Of a stretch of DNA of 46,209 nucleotides, positions 1,540 through 45,225 are shown one piece after another. The stretch is from Candidatus Dojkabacteria bacterium (GTDB lineage Bacteria; Patescibacteriota; Dojkabacteria; SC72; WJKH01): the NCBI GenBank assembly GCA_014729235.1, contig WJKH01000029.1, positions 1 to 46,209 of the forward strand, read 5' to 3'. How positions within the stretch are numbered: position 1 is the first letter of the stretch; each line of letters begins with the position of its first letter. A program made the translations under genes and the position numbers. The notes beneath the pieces are model-generated. The model did not search any database, was not told the DNA's origin, and saw only the letters and a list, made by a program, of their open reading frames with translations.

Positions 1540-4275
1540 ATGACCGAGAAAAAAGACAATGATGCTAAAAAAATAAAGAAACTCATTATCAAGTCTGAAG
1601 ATGAGTTAATTGATGTTATTAGAAAGCTGAAAAACAGCGATTCAAAGCACATTATATTAACCTTCGCTGAAAAATCCGACCTATTGATTAGTCCAATCAG
1701 CTTCAAAGTCCTTCAAAAGACTGCTGATGAAGAAGGGAAGTTAATAATTGCACAGATAGTACAGCACAAAGCAGGATTGACAAATGCACAATTTGCAAAA
1801 GTAACTGCTACTTCTTCTCCAAACGAAGTCCCTGCTGATCTCTGGAAAATCGCTAAGCAGGATTTAGAATTTCGCCAAGAGGACAAAGCAGAGCGACTTA
1901 AGCATAAAGATAAATTACCTGAGCCCAAACAAGATCCTGAACCGACAGAAACTCCTGAAAACATGGATCTGAAAGAATTCGACCTCGCAAAAGAAGCTGA
2001 CTGTGGGGAGAAACCTCTTCCTATTAAAGACGAGACCGATATTCCTGAAATTGAAGACTCTGACGAAGGTTCCGAAGAACCTATAACTGAAGATAAAGAA
2101 GAGCCAAAAGAAGGTCCGCAGGAACATGTATCAGATTTTCAGAAACGAATATCCGAGACCCTCCTAAAAGCTCAAAAAGACTACACAGATCCACAAAACA
2201 AAATTGTAAGGGAAGATGATTTCATTATTGCACTCGATCAAGATATCAAGGATGTCCCGGGAGTAAACCTTGATGAATTTGAAAACGAATCTCTTGAGTC
2301 ATTTGAAAGAAGTGATGAAGATTCTGATTCCAATTCCAATGAACAGAAGTTGAAATCTAGTGACAAAAAGGCCTCCTCTGAAAAACCCACAACTGTGGAG
2401 TCTAAAGATCCAGCTGAAATCGAGTCCAAATTGCCATCATCATCTCAAAACAATACCCCTACCCCTTCAGAGAAAAAGACACCTAAAAAGCTCTCAAGAC
2501 CGGATAAAGATAACGACTTAAAACTCGAATTTTATGAAGATGATATTGACCAGTTTGACCTGCAAAATGATAAAGCCGATACCAAACAGCCCCAGAAATC
2601 ACACATAAACTCTTCGGGACCTGATACCAGCAGCCACAAAAACTCGGCAAAAGATAGAATTAAGGACTTTATTAAGTCCGCCTCTGATAAAATTCAACAA
2701 ACGGCGGCATCAGTTAAAGCCGGCTCTCCCGATGAAAAAGCTGACTCCGATTTGCAACCCAAACCCAACCCACAACTTCAAAAAAAAAGTAGTGATCTCG
2801 TAGGAAAAGACCTCAGAAATACACCTGCCCCCAAACCCCAGAAATCTATGCAGATATCACATAAACCAACAAACTACACAAACTCAGCGCTCTCACCTTC
2901 CCAATTCAATCAAATGCAAAATCATGCTCAAGGCCGTAGAAATACAGCGAGTCCGATATCATCAATTATCTCATCCCTTAAAACCTTAGTATCCAGCATC
3001 CTTCCAAAAGGAAAGAATCTCAATATTAGAAAGCTGATCCTCCCAACTGTATTTATTTTCCTCTTGATTTTTTATGGGATTTATAAAATAACTTCTCAGG
3101 CAACCGTTAATGTATCAATTGAAAGCAGACCTGTAACATTTGAAAGAACTTTTACCGGCAAAGAGGGAGCAGAATTTAGCTTATCCGAAGACCGCATCGC
3201 CGTTAAAAAGGAAGAAGTTGTCAGAGAACGGTCAGAAACAGGTGATGCAAGCGGGACAGGTTACGAAGGCGAACCATCAAGCGGCACTATTAAAGTACAG
3301 TGCCTGATATCAGTAGATGAGTTTCCTGATAACGTAATTACTATCCCAAAAGGAACTACTGCTACAGAAATATCTACAGGAAAAAAATACGAGACTCTCT
3401 CAGCGATCGATGATAAACAGTGCCCATCACTTACATCAATTGATATCAAAGCGAAAGGCGTGGGCCCTGACTATAACCTGGAATCAGGTTCCGGCGTATT
3501 CGCTTTCGATGGATTTGACCGCAACAAGGTATCCGCAGTCAATGTGTCAGCAATAGACGGCGGCACACAAGAAGAAGTACCCGAAATTACCCAAGAAGAT
3601 GTTGATGACTTAATTGAAGACCTAGAGGAAATTGTTGAAGAAGAAGCCCAGACTGAACTTGAAGAGATTAATGCTGTTGACGGCTGGATCGTAATTCAGG
3701 ATACAATTGATCACGAAACGGAAGGCGACCCAAAACCCGATCCCTCAGTTGGAACTCAATCCGAAACATTTGACATTGGACTGAGCGTAAAAAGCAGTGC
3801 CCTATACTATCGCAAAAGTGATATTGAGAATTCCCTGCCTGAGATCATTCTCGAAGAAGCCCGCAAACAAAACGTTTTTGGCAACACTACTGAACTGCAA
3901 GTAGTCGGCGAAATTGACACCAGATACAGCGTTGATGTGGAAGATAATGATGATGCGGAAGAAGTTAAAGTCAAAATCGAGGTCTCCGCTATGGTCAAGC
4001 CCGAGATTACTGAGGAGGAGATTCTCGCAAATCTGGAAGGCAAAAGCTGGAACGAAGGCATGGATTATCTTGGAGATTTGCCATTTCTCGCCGGTCCGGT
4101 CGAAGCAGATTTCAAACCCGCCTGGTTCCCTGCATTCTTGAAGCACTTTCCCGACGGCAAAAACCAAATCTTTGTCCATATTAACGAGGTTAGTTTCTCT
4201 TCCGATGAATCAGAGGACATTCCTGAAGAATCAGAATCTGAGGAATCTCAAGACGAGGATCAATCTGAAGACTAG
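1540..4275 (+). CDS. Large acidic single-pass membrane protein with baseplate-J-like C-terminal half
   Basis: 911 aa; ~480-aa low-complexity acidic/Ser/Lys N-terminal region, one TM (ILPTVFIFLLIFYGIYKI), then GTIKVQC...VITIPKGTTATEISTGKKYETLSAI...IKAKGVGPDYNL resembling baseplate J/gp47-type proteins annotated in CPR genomes. Confidence 0.6.
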   Translation: MTEKKDNDAKKIKKLIIKSEDELIDVIRKLKNSDSKHIILTFAEKSDLLISPISFKVLQKTADEEGKLIIAQIVQHKAGLTNAQFAKVTATSSPNEVPADLWKIAKQDLEFRQEDKAERLKHKDKLPEPKQDPEPTETPENMDLKEFDLAKEADCGEKPLPIKDETDIPEIEDSDEGSEEPITEDKEEPKEGPQEHVSDFQKRISETLLKAQKDYTDPQNKIVREDDFIIALDQDIKDVPGVNLDEFENESLESFERSDEDSDSNSNEQKLKSSDKKASSEKPTTVESKDPAEIESKLPSSSQNNTPTPSEKKTPKKLSRPDKDNDLKLEFYEDDIDQFDLQNDKADTKQPQKSHINSSGPDTSSHKNSAKDRIKDFIKSASDKIQQTAASVKAGSPDEKADSDLQPKPNPQLQKKSSDLVGKDLRNTPAPKPQKSMQISHKPTNYTNSALSPSQFNQMQNHAQGRRNTASPISSIISSLKTLVSSILPKGKNLNIRKLILPTVFIFLLIFYGIYKITSQATVNVSIESRPVTFERTFTGKEGAEFSLSEDRIAVKKEEVVRERSETGDASGTGYEGEPSSGTIKVQCLISVDEFPDNVITIPKGTTATEISTGKKYETLSAIDDKQCPSLTSIDIKAKGVGPDYNLESGSGVFAFDGFDRNKVSAVNVSAIDGGTQEEVPEITQEDVDDLIEDLEEIVEEEAQTELEEINAVDGWIVIQDTIDHETEGDPKPDPSVGTQSETFDIGLSVKSSALYYRKSDIENSLPEIILEEARKQNVFGNTTELQVVGEIDTRYSVDVEDNDDAEEVKVKIEVSAMVKPEITEEEILANLEGKSWNEGMDYLGDLPFLAGPVEADFKPAWFPAFLKHFPDGKNQIFVHINEVSFSSDESEDIPEESESEESQDEDQSED

Positions 4276-4531: not shown

Positions 4532-4617
4532 TAATATGAGTTAAGAAATTCAAAATCAATAGAGCAATAAGTCCTAGTCGCATTTTCATGCAGGATTATT
4601 TCGCATACCATGTATTA
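4532..4617 (+). repeat. Interspersed repeat copy A (hybrid/internally deleted)
   Basis: TAATATGAGTTAAGAAATTCAAAATCAATAGAGCAATAA joined to GTCCTAGTCGCATTTTCATGCAGGATTATTTCG; first half matches copies B/D, second half matches copies C/D. Confidence 0.75.
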
Positions 4618-5184: not shown

Positions 5185-5321
5185 ATTTACCCCGATAAAC
5201 CTCCAATTCACTATTGAACCCTCAGATTTCCATACAAACCCCAAATTCCGAACCCAGCCCAGCCACACATAAATCCCCATATGCAAAAATAATTAGTTGA
5301 GTAAACCAAACTTAACTAAAT

Positions 5322-5460
5322 TAATGTGAATTAAAAAAAAGACTGCAGTTGAAAAGCGCGGGTAGCCAATCGGTTTAAGCTTTGACGGGTGAGAGGTCGA
5401 ATGACCCAAAGCTATGGCAAAAAGTCCTTGTCGCCTTTTCATGCAGGATTATTTCGTAAC
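5322..5460 (+). repeat. Interspersed repeat copy C containing a structured-RNA-like core (5343-5446)
   Basis: Shares GACTGCA(G/A)TTGAAAAGCGCG ... GCAAAAAGTCCT(T/A)GTCGCCTTTTCATGCAG(G/A)ATTATTTCGT with copy D at 26361-26583 (opposite strand). Confidence 0.8.
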
Positions 5461-5481
5461 TTAAATAGTATTATTAATTCA

Positions 5482-6378
5482 ATGGACAAAAACAGTATAT
5501 TGGGAACAATCGGAAACACACCAATAATCGAGCTGCGCAGATATTCATTCAACAAAAACGTAAAAATATTCGCAAAACTCGAAGGACGAAATCCCGGGGG
5601 GTCAATTAAAGACAGAGTCGCCCACCAACTCGTACTCAGTGCAGAGACAAAAGGACTCATAAGCAAAAACCGAGATATAAAGTTAATTGAGGCAACAAGC
5701 GGAAATACAGGAATCGGTTTGGCTATGGTGTCTGCAATACGAGGCTATAAGTTTCTTGCGGTAATGCCGAAAAATGCGAGCACCGAGCGAAAAAAGTTAA
5801 TCAAACAATTCGGAGCCGACCTCCTGCTAACAGATGGAAGTAAAGGCAGCAATTTCGCCCTCAAGACTGCACAAGAAATTGTAAAAAATACCCCGGAGAA
5901 ATACATCATGCTAAATCAATACAACAACCCGGCAAATCCGGAAGCGCATTTTTTGACTACAGGCAAAGAAATCCAGCAACAAATGCCTGAAATCACACAC
6001 TTTGTCGCCGGGATGGGAACCGGGGGCACGCTGATGGGAGTAGGAAAACGATTAAAGCAATTTAAGAAATCTATAAAAGTTATCGGAGTAGAACCTGCCA
6101 AAGGCTCAAAACTTCAAGGTCTTAGAAATATGGAAGAATTTATCCCCGGTGTCTATAAACCCGCCTTAATAGATAAGAAATTGATTATTGCCGACGACAG
6201 TCCTGCTCTTGAGCTTGTTGGTGATTTAGCCCGTATTTCCGGGATTTCTGTAGGTTTTTCTTCAGGCGCTGCTCTTTGGGGTGCCCGGGAGCTGTCAAAA
6301 TCTCTCAAAAATGGTATAATTGTAACGGTTTTTCCTGATTCAGGTGATCGATATCTAAGTCTGACGCCAGTGGTTTGA
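5482..6378 (+). CDS. cysM: Cysteine synthase (CysM/CysK-type, PLP-dependent)
   Basis: MDKNSILGTIGNTPIIELRRY, KLEGRNPGGSIKDRVA, IEATSGNTGIGLA, GMGTGGTLMGVG, FPDSGDRYLS. The ORF-track start at 5389 lies inside the repeat element; ATG at 5482 is preferred. Confidence 0.93.
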   Translation: MDKNSILGTIGNTPIIELRRYSFNKNVKIFAKLEGRNPGGSIKDRVAHQLVLSAETKGLISKNRDIKLIEATSGNTGIGLAMVSAIRGYKFLAVMPKNASTERKKLIKQFGADLLLTDGSKGSNFALKTAQEIVKNTPEKYIMLNQYNNPANPEAHFLTTGKEIQQQMPEITHFVAGMGTGGTLMGVGKRLKQFKKSIKVIGVEPAKGSKLQGLRNMEEFIPGVYKPALIDKKLIIADDSPALELVGDLARISGISVGFSSGAALWGARELSKSLKNGIIVTVFPDSGDRYLSLTPVV

Positions 6379-6709: not shown

Positions 6710-7859
6710 ATGTCAGAATCTGAACAACAAGAGCACTATTATCCAGAAAAACGTCAAGGTTGCGAGCCACATACTATCCAAGGCCCTAATGGAGGAAGCA
6801 TGAAGGTTTATTTCGAGAGACATGGGTCCGAACGCAACGTTAATGCTGAAACGCTGATGGGTCGAGTGCCTCCTGGTGGCATTTGTCTTGAAGCAGTTCC
6901 TCCCACACCTGGTAATTGGATTCAGTCTCCCCCAGGTAAAGTCCTTTCCCAATATTATGAAGCACCCAATGGGGAAATATATCCCATAATACCTCTTGCG
7001 CTTCACACATACTGTGCAGACAATCAAATTCCAATTCTTCTTCCGGACTTTTCAACCCCAGATATGCCAAATATAACGACAACCTCACACCTGTTAATTG
7101 CAACATCGATTATTATAGAATTCTTAGTATCGTACCTGGGGACAAGAAGCTATGAGAACGTTTTTGCTGATTCCAGAGATGAATCTGAAAAACTTATAGA
7201 CTATTTGATGAACTCTGTAAAAGTTAGCCGTAGAGAATTTCTCATTGGAACTGCGGCAGTAGCCGCAGCATTATGCATCCCTGCATCATATATAAGGCTT
7301 ATATATGCAAGATTTGCAAGAAAAGCCTCAAGCAATGGTCTCGATGATCTTTATAACACTGAAAATGACTCACCAGATTTTTGCGAAAAAAAAGAAAACT
7401 TAATGCAACATACAGAAGGACTCCATTTGCAGATTTATTAGACCCCAAAATTTTTTAAGAAACTTAGTATGGGCATCAAAGCTGGTTGCCTACCAGGAAG
7501 AAAACAAAAATTCAGATATTGCTTTTTTTCTCGGAAATAATCATGGCGGTTTTGAGTTTTTTTACAAAATCGGAACACATTTGGGTTCCGGCTTATTAAA
7601 TAAGATGATTCTTATATATTTATCTGACGCCCCAGGATTACTTGAAGATAACGGAGTCGAATCCATAACAAAAATGAAAATTTTACACCCCGCAAAAGGA
7701 TCCGGAGAGACTAAATGGACTGACACAATATTTACGAATGACAAACTAGATTACCTCTTAACTCAACTTTTCCAGCGACAGCAACAACAAAAACAGCAGC
7801 AGCAACAACAACATGAACACCAGCAACGCTTCCCCGGAATGGAGACCGAAAAAGCATGA
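6710..7859 (+). pseudogene. Tiki/TraB-like protein gene interrupted by two frameshifts
   Basis: ORF 6710-7441 and the open frame leading into 7581-7859 become one ~383-aa reading frame if one A is added to the A8 run near 7385 and one T to the T6 run near 7450: ..PDFCEKKRKLNATYRRTPFADLLDPKIFLRNLVWASKLVAYQEENKNSDIAFFLGNNHGG... Contains GNNH (GxxH) motif and C-terminal polyQ. Confidence 0.6.
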
Positions 7860-7956
7860 CTTGCCCTAAATACCCCTTCCCAAAAACGCCAAATCCAGAT
7901 ACAATACAAATATGATGACAGCAAAATCAAACAAGATGATACGCCCGGAATATACC

Positions 7957-8133
7957 CGTTTGATAAGCAAACTGGGCTACCGTTCGTTATCTGCTCTCGT
8001 TCGGTATCACAAACCCTCACGGGTTTGTGTACGCTCACTCGTTTGATAAACAAACTGGGGTACCGTTCGTTATCTGCTCTCGCTCGGTATCACAAACCCT
8101 TACGGGTTTGTGTACGCTCACTCGTTTGATAAT
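7957..8133. repeat. 83-bp tandem repeat, two full copies plus a partial third
   Basis: CGTTTGATAA... starts at 7957, 8040 and 8123 (exact 83-bp period); each unit carries the hairpin CACAAACCC-TNAC-GGGTTTGTG. Confidence 0.9.
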
Positions 8134-8153: not shown

Positions 8154-8759
8154 ATGGCAATAGCATTCCTAATATTTTTAATACTAATCTGCGTAGTATA
8201 CGCCGTCAGGACAAAACTCGTAGACCTGATGGTCATCCTATTATCAGTAGCATTCTTTCTATTGATAGTACTCGGAATCGTAGGAGTATTTATACCCTCA
8301 GTATTTACAAAATTATCAGATATAAGCCTTAAAGCTTCAGGAACATACGAAAAAATCCTGGAAATTGATAAAAGCATCCCCGGCACAAACATAAGTGCCG
8401 ATCTGAAAGAATCCTCAAATTCAATTGTAAATGACGTAATTGCCTTTTTCACCGGCAACAACGATGAAAATCAAAATACTGAAGACAGCGAATTCTCTGA
8501 AATTGAAATTCCCTCAGAAAGCAATATGGGAATACTGGAGAAAAATTTGTATCCGAGCCTCGTCAGCACAGTAGCATTTATTTATCGTGCGCTATCTATC
8601 TTAGTCTCAATAGCTGGCCTGATCACAATTGTGTACCTCAGCTACGCCACAGCCGGAGTAACAGATATATACAAACTTAAAAAAAGAATATCTGAACTCG
8701 AAGGACGAACAATAAATCTGGAAAATGCAGTATTTCCGCCTCCGCAACCCACAGTTTAA
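8154..8759 (+). CDS. Hypothetical membrane protein
   Basis: 201 aa, three or so hydrophobic segments, short C-terminal coiled-coil-like tail. Confidence 0.65.
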   Translation: MAIAFLIFLILICVVYAVRTKLVDLMVILLSVAFFLLIVLGIVGVFIPSVFTKLSDISLKASGTYEKILEIDKSIPGTNISADLKESSNSIVNDVIAFFTGNNDENQNTEDSEFSEIEIPSESNMGILEKNLYPSLVSTVAFIYRALSILVSIAGLITIVYLSYATAGVTDIYKLKKRISELEGRTINLENAVFPPPQPTV

Positions 8760-20127: not shown

Positions 20128-20192
20128 TTTCTTTATCGCTTAAAACTTAGGCATTACTAATTAGAATAGCATTATTGGATGATTATGTAAAT

Positions 20193-20270
20193 TAATGTGA
20201 GTTACAAAATTCAAAAATCAATAGAGCAATAATTTTTGAATTTCGAATACCCCATATTAACGATATTAAT
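20193..20270 (+). repeat. Interspersed repeat copy B (palindromic)
   Basis: TAATGTGAGTTA... with 12-bp perfect arms AAATTCAAAAAT (20207-20218) / ATTTTTGAATTT (20232-20243) around a loop containing ATAGAGCAAT. Confidence 0.8.
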
Positions 20271-25409: not shown

Positions 25410-26357
25410 CTACTCATCTCCTACATACTTCAGATCTCCACTACTATTGTAAAGCACATAATCAAAAATTGAAAGGGCATTGTCACTCACTGGTATGCTG
25501 AAGTAACTTCCCTGAAAACTCGAGACATTCGTAGCCTTTGGTGTAACTCTTATCGCAACAGCATTATTGCATGAAACGGAAGAAGTCATCTGCATAGTAA
25601 CAGGCCCTGGTGCAGCAATAATTCTGATCTCATGCGGTTCATAATTTTTTCCGCCATAGCTCACGGCATCCAGAGTAAAGCTCCAGGCTCCATTTGTATC
25701 CCACCCGTAGTTACTTCCAAATGGTGAGTAAGTACCACCCGATAAACAACCTGGGCATATCCCGAAAATATCATCATTAGTGTGGTTTGAGCCAAAACCT
25801 GAAGTAGAGTAGGGCTTAATTTCTATCGGATTCCCGTCAACATCCTTAATCGCATATATTTTATGAACAACCAGCCCCCCACCATCAAAAACAAAATCAT
25901 ATGTGCAGCCGCTGTTCGCAGCATCTATCATAATTGAATAACTCTCATATTCAGGAATTGTAATACCATCCGGAAACTCATTATCTTTCGTAAAACAAAG
26001 TTCAACTTCAGACTCAGCCCCCTCGTTCAAATTCAGTACTTCCAAGTCCACCGAAACACCAAGCTCAGACTCAATTTCATCTCCATCCATACAATACTCA
26101 TCAACACTTTGAAGCTCTGGCAAAACAATACTCATCAGCTCATCACGATCAGTACTCTCAATCATTCTAATAATCGACTCAACTTCCTGAGAGGCTTCCG
26201 TTGAACGTTTCTCTCCGATGAGCCGCATCCTGTTTTTAATGTTGCGGGAGTAGAGTGCCAATGCAAGCACAATTCCTACTACAAGTATGATCATTATTAT
26301 CGGCAAGATCTGCCCGCTGTAATTTCTCTTTTTTCCCTTCATTTTTTGATTCTGCAT
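25410..26357 (-). CDS. PilX-like minor pilin/pilus-associated protein
   Basis: MQNQKMKGKKRNYSGQILPIIMIILVVGIVLALALYSRN: short basic N-terminus plus TM. Start at 26357 preferred; the ORF-track start at 26414 lies in the repeat. Confidence 0.6.
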   Translation of the reverse strand: MQNQKMKGKKRNYSGQILPIIMIILVVGIVLALALYSRNIKNRMRLIGEKRSTEASQEVESIIRMIESTDRDELMSIVLPELQSVDEYCMDGDEIESELGVSVDLEVLNLNEGAESEVELCFTKDNEFPDGITIPEYESYSIMIDAANSGCTYDFVFDGGGLVVHKIYAIKDVDGNPIEIKPYSTSGFGSNHTNDDIFGICPGCLSGGTYSPFGSNYGWDTNGAWSFTLDAVSYGGKNYEPHEIRIIAAPGPVTMQMTSSVSCNNAVAIRVTPKATNVSSFQGSYFSIPVSDNALSIFDYVLYNSSGDLKYVGDE

Positions 26358-26360
26358 ATT

Positions 26361-26583
26361 TAATTTGAGTAACGAAATAATTCTGCATGAAAAGGCGACT
26401 AGGACTTTTTGCAATAGTATTAGGTCATTCGTCCCTGCCCCCTGGCATATCTTAAACCTACCGGCTGCGCGCGCTTTTCAATTGCAGTCTTCTTTCTTAA
26501 CATAAATTAAAATTTTTAATATAAAGTATTCAAAATTCAAAAGTTATTGCTCTATGGATTTTTGAATTTCATAACTCAAATTA
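26361..26583 (-). repeat. Interspersed repeat copy D, full-length with terminal inverted repeats and structured core (26383-26487)
   Basis: Ends TAATTTGAGTAA (26361-26372) and TAACTCAAATTA (26572-26583) are inverted repeats with 1 mismatch; contains the B-type hairpin and the C-type core. Confidence 0.8.
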
Positions 26584-26588
26584 TTTGC

Positions 26589-39776: not shown

Positions 39777-42641
39777 ATGGCAGAAAAATCTAAAGGAAAA
39801 AAAGAAAAAAATCTGAAAAAAGCTAAAAAAGAATTATTAAAACGAGCTGAAAAGCCCGAAAAAAAAGACGAGCCGGGCAAGGAAGAAGCAGAAACAGCTG
39901 CTGATTCCGATGAACAGCAATTTGACACACCTGAATTTGAACAAGGGAAGGTAGTCAGGCAATCTATCGTAAAAGAAATGAAGTCAAATTACCTTGATTA
40001 CTCAATGTCAGTTATTGTATCCCGTGCACTCCCGGATGTCCGTGACGGATTAAAACCATCACAGCGGAGAATTCTTGTGGCTATGAATGATTTAAATCTG
40101 AAACCGGGTTCACATTACAGAAAATCCGCCAAAATAGCTGGTGACACATCTGGTAACTACCACCCGCACGGTGAACAGGTAGTCTATCCAACTATGGTTA
40201 AGATGGCACAGGATTTTTCAACCAGATATCCGCTTGTAGACGGGCAGGGAAACTTTGGTTCAATTGACGGCGATACTCCTGCCGCAATGCGTTATACAGA
40301 GGCAAGAATGGGGAAAATCACCAGCGCCATGATTCAGGATCTGGAAAAAGGAACTGTCACTTATATCCCGAATTATGACGCAACCAGAACTGAACCGACT
40401 ATTTTGCCGACAGTATTTCCTAATTTGCTTTGCAACGGCAGTGATGGAATCGCAGTAGGTATGGCAACCAAAATTCCACCTCACAATATGACAGAAGTTG
40501 TAACCGCTCTGCGTGAAATGATTAAAAAGGGCAACAAATGGAAAGGCGAGGCTCTTTACAATGATTTGAGAGAGAAGAAAGAGAAAAAGGAGAAAACACC
40601 ACGTGTTCTAAATTCGGCACCGGAAGATCTCCTTGAAAATTATGTACACGAAGACGATCCTGACAGGGAAGAAAAGATTGCAGAGATTCGCAAACAAATA
40701 CGCGAAAGCGATGAAGACAAAGTTGTAACACTTTATCCAAAATTTGAATCCGGTATCTCGCTTGACGAATTGATTGAGATTATTCCGGGCCCTGATTTTC
40801 CAACCGGAGGCACCATCTACAACAGAAAAGAGGTGCTAAAAGCCTACGAGACGGGGAGAGGGCGAGTTTTGATGCGTGCTAAGGCTTCAATTCAGGAGGG
40901 CAAGAGAAATCGCATGAGAATAATCGTCACTGAGGTCCCATACCAGGTAAACAAGGCCCATATGATAAGCAAAATCGCTGACCTGGCAAAAGAAAAGAAA
41001 ATTACCGGAATATCTGACATCAGGGACGAATCAAATCGAGAAGGTATTAGAGTAGTCATAAAATTGAAGAAAGATGCTCAGCCAAAAGTAGTTCTCAACA
41101 AACTCTACAAATACACCGAAATGCAGAAAGCCTTCAATGCCAACATGATAGCGCTCGTAAACGGTGAACCCAAAACCCTCAATTTAAAAAGAATGCTTGA
41201 ACTATTTATCACTCACCGAATTGAGATAACGATCCGCAGATATGAATTTGAACTGGCTCAGAACCGCTACAGAGGACATATCCTGGAAGGCTATCTAAAA
41301 GCTCTGGATCTAATTGATGAGGTAATTAAGTTGATCCGGGCATCAAAAACTCAGGAAGAAGCAAAAGATAACATGATTAAAGAGTTTGATTTCACGGAAG
41401 TTCAAGCTCAGGCGATATTGGATATGCAGCTTCGCAGACTTGCTGCCCTTGAAAAACAGAAAATTGAAGATGAATTCGCAGAAATCAAAGATAGAATTAA
41501 GCTTTACACCGGAATTCTCGGAGACAATTCAGAAATTTTGAAAGTAATTGATAGAGATCTGGAAGAAGTCATTGAGAAATACGGCGATGACCGGCGGACA
41601 AAAGTTGTAAAAGGCAAAGTGGATGAAATTTCAGAAGAAGACATAATCGCCGAGGAAGATACCTTTGTGACGATAACCAGAGCTGGCTATGTAAAACGAG
41701 TTTCTCCTGACGTCTACAAAACTCAAAAACGCGGCGGGAAAGGCAAGATTGGGGCCACTACAAAAGAAGGAGACTATGTTGAGCACGCTGTTTTATGCAG
41801 TACTCACGATGTATTGCTGCTATTTACAAACCGCGGAAGAGTATTTGATCTGAAAACTTACGACATCCCTGAGTCAGGCCGCACCGCAAAAGGATTACCT
41901 ATTGTTAACCTGATCCAGATAGAGCAGGGCGAGATAATCACAAGCGTACTGAAGCGGACAAATGGCATTAACACAGTCCAAAATACCAACGAAATGGCTG
42001 ATGACGATGATGGAGGGTCAGTAAAGCCTGATAACAAAAAGAAGTACCTGTTTATGGCCACCGAAAAAGGAGTAGTCAAGAAAACAGATATTTCTGAATT
42101 CGAAAATATCAGGTCATCGGGCCTAATCGCAATTAAGCTCCAGCAGGGAGACGAATTGGGATGGGTACAGCCGACCACCGGAGAGGATGAAATTATGCTT
42201 ATTACCAGAAAGGGTAAGTCTATACGATTTAGTGAAGATGATGTGCGATCTCAGGGGCGAAATACCCAGGGCGTCACAGGTATTAAGTTTAAATTTGAGG
42301 ATGACGAGGTTATCTCAATGATCGTAGTTGGAAAAGATAGTGATAAACTGTTTGTAATCTCGGAAAAAGGCTACGGAAAAATGACAGAATTAAAGCAATA
42401 TTCCAATCAAAATCGAGGAGGAAGCGGCATTTATACTTTCCAAATTCGCAAAAAGACCGGAGACCTGGTTGCCGCCGATTTAATAAATGGTGATATTGAT
42501 GAAATGGTTGTTATGTCAAAGAACGGGGTAGTAATACGCCTGGAAACCAAGGGCCTTCCAAAGCTGAATCGTCAGACCTCAGGTGTCAAGATTATGGACA
42601 TGAAAGGGGATGATGAAGTAACAGCGATGGTTCTGGATTAA
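39777..42641 (+). CDS. gyrA: DNA gyrase subunit A
   Basis: YLDYSMSVIVSRALPDVRDGLKPSQRRIL, YHPHGEQVVYPTMVKMAQ, YTEARM, ISLDELIEIIPGPDFPTGG, GyrA-box-like QKRGGKGK. Confidence 0.96.
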   Translation: MAEKSKGKKEKNLKKAKKELLKRAEKPEKKDEPGKEEAETAADSDEQQFDTPEFEQGKVVRQSIVKEMKSNYLDYSMSVIVSRALPDVRDGLKPSQRRILVAMNDLNLKPGSHYRKSAKIAGDTSGNYHPHGEQVVYPTMVKMAQDFSTRYPLVDGQGNFGSIDGDTPAAMRYTEARMGKITSAMIQDLEKGTVTYIPNYDATRTEPTILPTVFPNLLCNGSDGIAVGMATKIPPHNMTEVVTALREMIKKGNKWKGEALYNDLREKKEKKEKTPRVLNSAPEDLLENYVHEDDPDREEKIAEIRKQIRESDEDKVVTLYPKFESGISLDELIEIIPGPDFPTGGTIYNRKEVLKAYETGRGRVLMRAKASIQEGKRNRMRIIVTEVPYQVNKAHMISKIADLAKEKKITGISDIRDESNREGIRVVIKLKKDAQPKVVLNKLYKYTEMQKAFNANMIALVNGEPKTLNLKRMLELFITHRIEITIRRYEFELAQNRYRGHILEGYLKALDLIDEVIKLIRASKTQEEAKDNMIKEFDFTEVQAQAILDMQLRRLAALEKQKIEDEFAEIKDRIKLYTGILGDNSEILKVIDRDLEEVIEKYGDDRRTKVVKGKVDEISEEDIIAEEDTFVTITRAGYVKRVSPDVYKTQKRGGKGKIGATTKEGDYVEHAVLCSTHDVLLLFTNRGRVFDLKTYDIPESGRTAKGLPIVNLIQIEQGEIITSVLKRTNGINTVQNTNEMADDDDGGSVKPDNKKKYLFMATEKGVVKKTDISEFENIRSSGLIAIKLQQGDELGWVQPTTGEDEIMLITRKGKSIRFSEDDVRSQGRNTQGVTGIKFKFEDDEVISMIVVGKDSDKLFVISEKGYGKMTELKQYSNQNRGGSGIYTFQIRKKTGDLVAADLINGDIDEMVVMSKNGVVIRLETKGLPKLNRQTSGVKIMDMKGDDEVTAMVLD

Positions 42642-43713: not shown

Positions 43714-43885
43714 TTTTGGGTGCATGGATTTTGGGTTGGGTAATTGGGGTGTTGAGTGGGTGGTCGGGTGTTGGTTTGGTGGAAGATTGCACACCCTCTA
43801 TTTAACAATCTCAAACGGCCTTTTTCATTATGCAAAAATTATGCAATACGCAATCCTGCTTTGGTGCCAATATTAATCTATCGTG

Positions 43886-45225
43886 TTAGATAAAAATTCA
43901 ATGTCATCGAAATCGACAAAATCAAAAGTGGTTAGATAAAAATATTTGTCATCGAAATTCAATGTATTTCGTCCCTTAATTTATCTAAAATCTCATCCGA
44001 TTTCGACCTTAATTTTACCAAATTTAGAGACAATTTAATATCCATGAGCTTTCTTTTGGTTGCCCTTTCAATTTTCCTTGACCTCATAAGCCTGTCGTAA
44101 GGAGTAGCAGGCTTCTGATAAGTTTTCTTAACAACCCGGCCTTTTTCGTCTCTTACCTTGCAGTGTAGTTTCATACAAGGAGTAAAAAAGTTGCAAATCA
44201 GATCTTCTACAGCGTAGAATTCATTTAGCAGGTTTACGGCTCTTTGAGTGTCCAATCTCCAGTGCCCAACCTGCTTCCTTACTTTATCACCATTCTTTTG
44301 CTCTACATGAGCATTATCATTCTTTTTGTAAGGTCTTGATCTGGAGACTTTTACATTCTTTAGTCTGGAGTGTACAACAGCCTCACTGGTAAGCATCTTT
44401 AAAGTGGAAGGACAGTTGTCCGGATGAAATCTTAATATTCTATGACGTATTCTTTCTAATACGATACTACATATTCCAGACACGGATTTTAGATTCTTTC
44501 CCCACCCAGCAGCTCTTACAGTCCATTGACTAAAGAGATCTACGTATGTTCCTGTTAAAGCGAATCTACCAGCACTTTGAGTTCCACTATGCTCTACATA
44601 GTCTATTTCGAAGTTTCCCGGTTCACTGGTATATTTTCTAAAATTAGCGTCGATTGGAACTAGTTGGTAAACATGGGATTTACTTTTGTAATTACGTTTA
44701 TTAGGGTTAGGAAATTCGGATATTACGTTTTTCAGAGTTCCTAGAGAAATTTCTTTACATATTTTGTAGTTTACTTCTGAAATATCTTTTAGTTTGCCGG
44801 TGTTTCTTAATGAAGTTAAGTAACTGTCTAATTCGGGAAACATTAGTTCAGTGCATAGATGGCCACTTAGTTTCCAACATTTTTCAATGACATTTTTATG
44901 AATTTGGATGTAGGTTTTCTTACGTCCTCGTTTTTTATTTTTACTGCGTTTTGTTGAAGGCTTGTTTGCTCTTCTCAGTCTTTGAACTGCAGTATTTCTT
45001 GATACTTTAGTTAAAGAGCAGTACTCATCCAGGATTTTACTTTTCTCTTTTTTAGGGGCTTTTTTATATCTTCGGGAATATTTATTTGATAATTGCATAT
45101 CGAAGTTATTCATAGGTTAAATAGATCATTAAATTTAGGTAATTTAATGATTTTAATTCATATCGTACGATGACATGAATTTTTATCTAACCACTTTTGC
45201 TTCGATGACATTTTTTATTATCTAA
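43886..45225 (-). mobile_element. Insertion sequence with doubled terminal repeats
   Basis: Left end TTAGATAAAAATTCAATGTCATCGAA (43886-43911) and GTTAGATAAAAATATTTGTCATCGAA (43931-43956); right end, reverse complement, TTAGATAATAAAAAATGTCATCGAA (45201-45225) and GTTAGATAAAAATTCATGTCATCG (45168-45191); brackets a transposase. Confidence 0.85.
43959..45113 (-). CDS. DDE-type integrase-core transposase (rve-like)
   Basis: FEIDYVEHSGTQSAGRFALTGTYVDLFSQWTVRAAGWGKN, RFHPDN, RPYKKNDNAHVEQKNGDKVRKQVGHWRLD. Confidence 0.85.
   Translation of the reverse strand: MNNFDMQLSNKYSRRYKKAPKKEKSKILDEYCSLTKVSRNTAVQRLRRANKPSTKRSKNKKRGRKKTYIQIHKNVIEKCWKLSGHLCTELMFPELDSYLTSLRNTGKLKDISEVNYKICKEISLGTLKNVISEFPNPNKRNYKSKSHVYQLVPIDANFRKYTSEPGNFEIDYVEHSGTQSAGRFALTGTYVDLFSQWTVRAAGWGKNLKSVSGICSIVLERIRHRILRFHPDNCPSTLKMLTSEAVVHSRLKNVKVSRSRPYKKNDNAHVEQKNGDKVRKQVGHWRLDTQRAVNLLNEFYAVEDLICNFFTPCMKLHCKVRDEKGRVVKKTYQKPATPYDRLMRSRKIERATKRKLMDIKLSLNLVKLRSKSDEILDKLRDEIH

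Follow-up and report, generated by a model that had tools for sequence, protein, structure and literature searches.

A probable MITE-like, modular intergenic repeat beside a cysM-like gene in a Candidatus Dojkabacteria genome

The structured stretch directly upstream of a cysM-like gene in the window (the whole 46,209-nt stretch of DNA analysed here) is very probably a copy, now decaying, of a lineage-specific, non-coding, modular and non-autonomous intergenic repeat of the MITE-like or BOX-like kind. The copy number of the repeat, its dispersal, its terminal inverted repeats, its modularity and its intergenic location were observed; its copy number and dispersal further suggest transposition and the existence of a mover. 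A preliminary description had seen in this stretch either a riboswitch-like regulatory RNA or an RNA borne by a mobile repeat, which would provide 5' UTRs. What stands of the second proposal is a high-copy, dispersed repeat with terminal inverted repeats; the regulatory RNA finds no support, and a 5'-UTR bias is absent.

The cysM-side copy and its family

Reading of the sequence confirmed the position of every motif named in the preliminary description, and showed that the element exceeds the limits given there, with termini at 5321 and about 5469. The repeat is built of two modules, A and B, and the stretch beside the cysM-like gene (copy C) is a module A, with the following features:

5321..5333, plus strand: left terminal repeat (R) of module A, TTAATGTGAATTA, found by pattern search, 1 mismatch to TTAATTTGARTTA
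5324..5458, plus strand: module A core (BLAST, alignment; family model 136.7 bits)
about 5343-5358 and 5432-5446, plus strand: outer arms of the preliminary description, CTGCA..TGAAAAGCG / CGCCTTTTCA.TGCAG, motif present
5343..5358, plus strand: 5' arm of the conserved palindrome (CTGCA GT TGAAAAG C G), helix 1, 90% of cells paired over 34 copies
5361..5431, plus strand: variable loop between the arms, containing the previously described inner helices, which are not conserved (identity and helix counts over 34 copies)
5364-5375, plus strand: AGCC-N4-GGTT, motif present
5378-5384, plus strand: AGCTTTG, motif present
5395-5406, plus strand: GGTC-GAAT-GACC, motif present
5407-5413, plus strand: CAAAGCT, motif present
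5432..5446, plus strand: 3' arm of the conserved palindrome (CGCCTTTTCATGCAG; alignment, pairing counts)
5457..5469, plus strand: right terminal repeat (R'), eroded, TAACTTAAATAGT, 4 mismatches to TAAYTCAAATTAA
5482..6378, plus strand: cysM-like gene adjoining the repeat (TIGR01136, E 8.7e-101)

The cysM-like gene likely starts at the ATG at 5482. Extended to its mechanical maximum, the reading frame opens with a GTG at 5389, and the TIGR01136 alignment begins at residue 34-39 of the ORF counted from there.

The second copy reported in the window (copy D) proved real, a palindrome-bearing relative of the cysM copy at about 26507-26371 on the minus strand and close to it in length (137 vs 135 nt). 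With an E value of 1.5e-29 against the 5322-5460 query (BLAST, own genome), the similarity of the two is far beyond chance. In a B-A composite at 26584-26360 (minus strand), copy D makes up the second half. The gene behind it (ORF 25410-26414), without NCBIfam match, lies near type IV pilus genes. The other parts of the repeat in the window are:

4533..4606, plus strand: B/A chimera, in which GCAATAA links the 5' half of module B with the 3' part of module A (BLAST, flank alignment)
20192..20270, plus strand: module B with junction, without module A (BLAST, flank alignment)
26508..26584, minus strand: module B and junction upstream of copy D, forming the B-A composite with its module A (BLAST, flank alignment)
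26371..26507, minus strand: module A, copy D (BLAST; family model 151 bits)
26360..26372, minus strand: right terminal repeat of copy D (TTACTCAAATTAA; pattern search), 3 nt before the ATG (26357-26355) of the next gene

Copies C and D are a small sample of a large repeat family, since the query 5322-5460 gave 51 BLAST matches to module A on some thirty contigs of its own genome (1,155,814 bases in 88 contigs, 94.7% complete; the stretches around the copies were read), the best non-self match reaching E 1e-34. Module B gave 41 matches in the same genome, and chaining of the A matches with related modules brought the family, for which a search for additional copies had been proposed before, to about 60 loci. 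Fragments of many sizes are present as well, so the family is also decaying. A covariance-model search, likewise proposed before, was run with a model of module A: it recovered at least 38 near-full-length copies in the own genome, while 85 other genomes of the class and 379 other genomes of the phylum yielded no copy, under stricter filters that weak relatives could escape. A DNA search of 58 relatives found no copy of the repeat (sampled relatives' genomes, 0.5-1.6 Mb), and there was no match to a 21-nt pattern of the repeat in IMG/VR and none to the repeat in phages (blastn). One 21-nt match to an archaeal MAG, from an exact-pattern search of GTDB in which own or near-relative records were possibly left out, is likely due to chance; three relatives gave weak matches to module B, but these span 25-46 nt, no more than a portion of the AT-rich sequence, and were likewise ascribed to chance. 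A full-text search of the literature on MITEs in CPR bacteria and on intergenic repeats in Patescibacteria returned nothing relevant.

The window holds further features of note. Compared with solved and NCBIfam gyrases, GyrA (39777-42641) has about 75-88 extra residues, inserted in frame between residues 245-250 and 326-334 (window 40510-40780). An 83-nt unit is tandemly duplicated at 7954-8119 (94% identical), and large or mid-size ORFs without NCBIfam match occupy 1540-4275, 6710-7441 and 8154-8759.

Modular architecture

An intact module A is an imperfect palindrome of about 150 nt with terminal inverted repeats TAATTTAATTTGARTTA...TAAYTCAAATTAAATTA, and because these ends run on into the inner arms, an intact copy amounts to a single long, imperfect hairpin. 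Alignment of near-full copies gave the consensus TTAATTTGARTTA(C/A/T)GAAA(G/C)AAGACTGCAGTTGAAAAGCGCG - ~70-nt loop - GTCGCCTTTTCATGCAGGATTATTTC(G/T/A)TAAYTCAAATTAA, of which only the arms are well conserved (pairwise identity 89%, vs 70% in the loop). Module B (about 75 nt), found just upstream of copy D, consists of R, GAAATTCAAAAATCAATAGAGCAATAACTTTTGAATTTC and GAATACCTTATATTAACAATA and is itself a hairpin. It usually precedes A via a shared junction, and the order is B then A wherever both occur. The full unit thus reads as a B hairpin (~75 nt), the short junction CCTTATATTAACAATA and an A hairpin (~150 nt), bounded by an inverted repeat of about 17 nt including poorly conserved outermost bases.

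The loci are mostly 75-300 nt long and gene-free, and their make-up varies: flank alignment distinguished B-A, A, A-A, B-A-A, chimera-A-A, B alone and B/A chimeras, module A being single, double or triple per locus. Leading terminal repeats tend to TTAATGTGAGTTAY and internal ones to TTAATTTGARTTA. In the chimeras, the 5' half of B is fused to A at differing points, the commonest join being GCAA(TAA), which is found in both modules (B GAGCAATAAC, A TTGCAATAAG; for example window 4533-4606); in others the junction was lost at the shared TTTGAATT. Such chimeras and arrays would be expected as products of recombination or slippage between short direct repeats.

Folding, gene context and alternative readings

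The inner helices are hardly shared beyond copy C: of 34 copies, just the one from which it was read has AGCTTTG/CAAAGCT complete, and 2 have GGTC/GACC complete. The AGCC/GGTT stem fared better, being kept in both window copies and complete in 21 of the 34, with its innermost pair broken in 10. Neither an exhaustive column search on these 34 copies nor mutual information gave a well-supported inner helix. The outer stem is 90% paired and the whole structure 89%, vs 38-51% after sliding by 1-3 columns. The overall covariation score was reached by 1 of 500 shuffles, and the clear compensatory signal lies at column pair 11/135 in the terminal repeat (AU 12, CG 7, UA 3). Covariation, which the preliminary description had named as a check, is present mainly in the terminal inverted repeat, chiefly at one pair, and absent internally; related copies of an inverted repeat give this pattern, and it is no evidence of a folded sensor. 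Intact copies elsewhere in the genome fold at -50 to -57 kcal/mol (z -5.8 to -8.6 vs dinucleotide shuffles). Erosion of its terminal repeats leaves the cysM copy no more stable than shuffles (z = -0.73), and copy D is intermediate (z = -1.45).

All chained loci are intergenic with respect to predicted genes. Where a gene was predicted on either side of the locus (58 loci; simple ORF prediction, counts approximate), orientation relative to the upstream and downstream gene was same/same in 21, opposite/opposite in 17, divergent in 12 and convergent in 8. Counted against the downstream gene, the sense orientation occurs at 33 loci and the antisense at 25, and neither strand is clearly preferred; the suggested 5'-UTR bias is not there. 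Tight spacing before start codons is equalled by spacing after the stop codons of opposing genes. The location ahead of a start codon, which had suggested regulation, is therefore just one among four arrangements that this compact genome shows.

These observations bear on the reading of the element as a cis-regulatory RNA, a riboswitch or attenuator whose copies would place cysM and other genes in one regulon. Several copies do end 3-30 nt before a start codon, the outer stem is conserved and AGCC/GGTT is retained in both window copies; however, the sense and antisense counts, the unshared inner helices, the mainly terminal covariation and the lack of the element in all sampled relatives speak against it. 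Moreover, Rfam gave nothing above gathering score in the window stretch except a nearby tRNA, and no family matches the repeat even at a permissive threshold, where nothing meaningful appeared. The regulatory role is thus unsupported and the regulon reading, to which we attach hardly any credence, is already largely refuted; nothing points to a ligand-sensing leader. An expressed small-RNA family with many dispersed paralogues would account for the strong hairpin of intact copies, for arms more conserved than the loop and for the tandem arrays. Yet the conservation is that of an inverted repeat extending to the ends, chimeras and truncations of graded extent are frequent, the copies lie close against genes on both strands, where a promoter of their own would find little space, and Rfam offers no match here either; we consider such a family highly improbable.

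Co-option as transcription terminators or mRNA 3'-end stabilisers kept by selection, as has been proposed for some pneumococcal SPRITE repeats, appears very unlikely too. A full-length symmetric hairpin would work for both strands, convergent genes flank 8 loci and the end of a gene immediately precedes many, but the hairpin has no following T-run, the 12 loci between divergent genes are where a terminator would be useless, and some copies, among them the cysM copy with its z of -0.73, lack the outer stem. It is also very unlikely that propagation of the repeat proceeds through a folded single strand, either a DNA hairpin or RNA, with arms selected for pairing and with B and A as interacting modules of a lineage-specific mobilisation system. 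Integron attC sites were also considered and dropped, the tandem units leaving almost no room between them for cassettes.

Spread, significance and known repeats

Returning to the MITE-like or BOX-like repeat as the favoured reading, we suggest that it spread as MITEs do, moved in trans by an enzyme recognising its ends. Recombination or deletion at short shared sequences (R/R, TTTCG, GCAATAA) would then have remodelled copies into A alone, A-A arrays, B alone and B/A chimeras, and the copies would now be decaying. If transcribed, intact copies may form a long hairpin and could incidentally affect mRNA stability or read-through. Target-site duplications were sought at lengths of 2-9 nt, with 36 offsets per length, in 25 composites that have both ends; the best of the 288 offset/length combinations gave p = 0.01, within multiple-testing expectation, and the flanks are AT-rich and the ends eroded.

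Among four transposase families, no insertion sequence with matching ends was found in the 94.7% complete genome, an outcome that a lost parent would also produce. Y1_Tnp (PF01797), for which control genomes gave matches, and DDE_3 transposases are absent from the own genome; members of DDE_Tnp_1 and rve are present, none with the termini of the repeat. The sole reverse transcriptase is a group II intron reverse transcriptase/maturase (TIGR04416; L093 91-1353, minus strand), unrelated to the repeat as far as seen. Pairs of R sites that might enclose a transposase held only eroded repeat fragments or unrelated genes, and the only inverted R pair at a spacing of about 1 kb (contig C30) has an ordinary ORF between its sites.

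The window also contains a probable insertion sequence (43880-45205, minus strand) with a 384-aa ORF (43959-45113) in which DDE-like motifs were read by eye (FEIDYVEHSG, DLFSQW, NDNAHVEQKN). This ORF has no Pfam or NCBIfam match and is flanked by 35-nt inverted repeats (43920-43954 / 45168-45202). An end of seemingly the same insertion sequence directly follows a truncated module B at L024 ~2150-2250; its subterminal TAATTTAATGA resembles the outer end of the repeat over 8-9 nt, probably by chance.

The repeat is real and lies outside known families by sequence, but its kind is familiar. Its high copy number and modularity in only 1.16 Mb make this interspersed repeat instructive as a case of a selfish repeat multiplying within a small genome. 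Moreover, paired structured and conserved leaders read from one window can be repeats, which calls for repeat screening before riboswitch calls.

The general features of MITEs, such as Nezha and QMITE, have been reviewed (PMC10969869). Like them, the present repeat is usually under 300 bp, intergenic and without coding capacity, with terminal inverted repeats, AT-rich ends and a high copy number in one lineage; it differs in its modular B-A architecture and in that no parent insertion sequence was found among the four transposase families. REP/BIME elements are also intergenic palindromes, sometimes arrayed, whereas the present repeat is several times longer and its genome has no Y1 (RAYT/IS200-type) transposase. 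ERIC (enterobacterial repetitive intergenic consensus), an imperfect palindrome of about 127 bp whose variants arise by internal deletion, is likewise intergenic with many copies, but it is a single module, taxonomically distant and, as far as searches show, unrelated in sequence. ERIC copy numbers range from tens to hundreds (PMC10969869).

The closest described architecture is that of the BOX element of Streptococcus pneumoniae, a boxA-(boxB)n-boxC composite in which the modules at the ends are fixed and those in the middle vary in number; its termini are inverted, and RNA hairpins are predicted for it (PMC3049150). BOX elements show target-site duplications (PMC3049150), whereas none were detectable in our 25 composites; here, moreover, two hairpin modules (B and A) share terminal sequence and A can be tandem. 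No sequence relationship to BOX was found, in that the searches gave no match outside the own genome. Both repeats are short, intergenic and modular, with modules in fixed order but varying number and with terminal inverted repeats; both would form an RNA hairpin if transcribed, and neither encodes its mobiliser. Claiming homology to none of these elements, we suggest from this likeness of architecture that the repeat may work in the manner of BOX/MITE-type elements.
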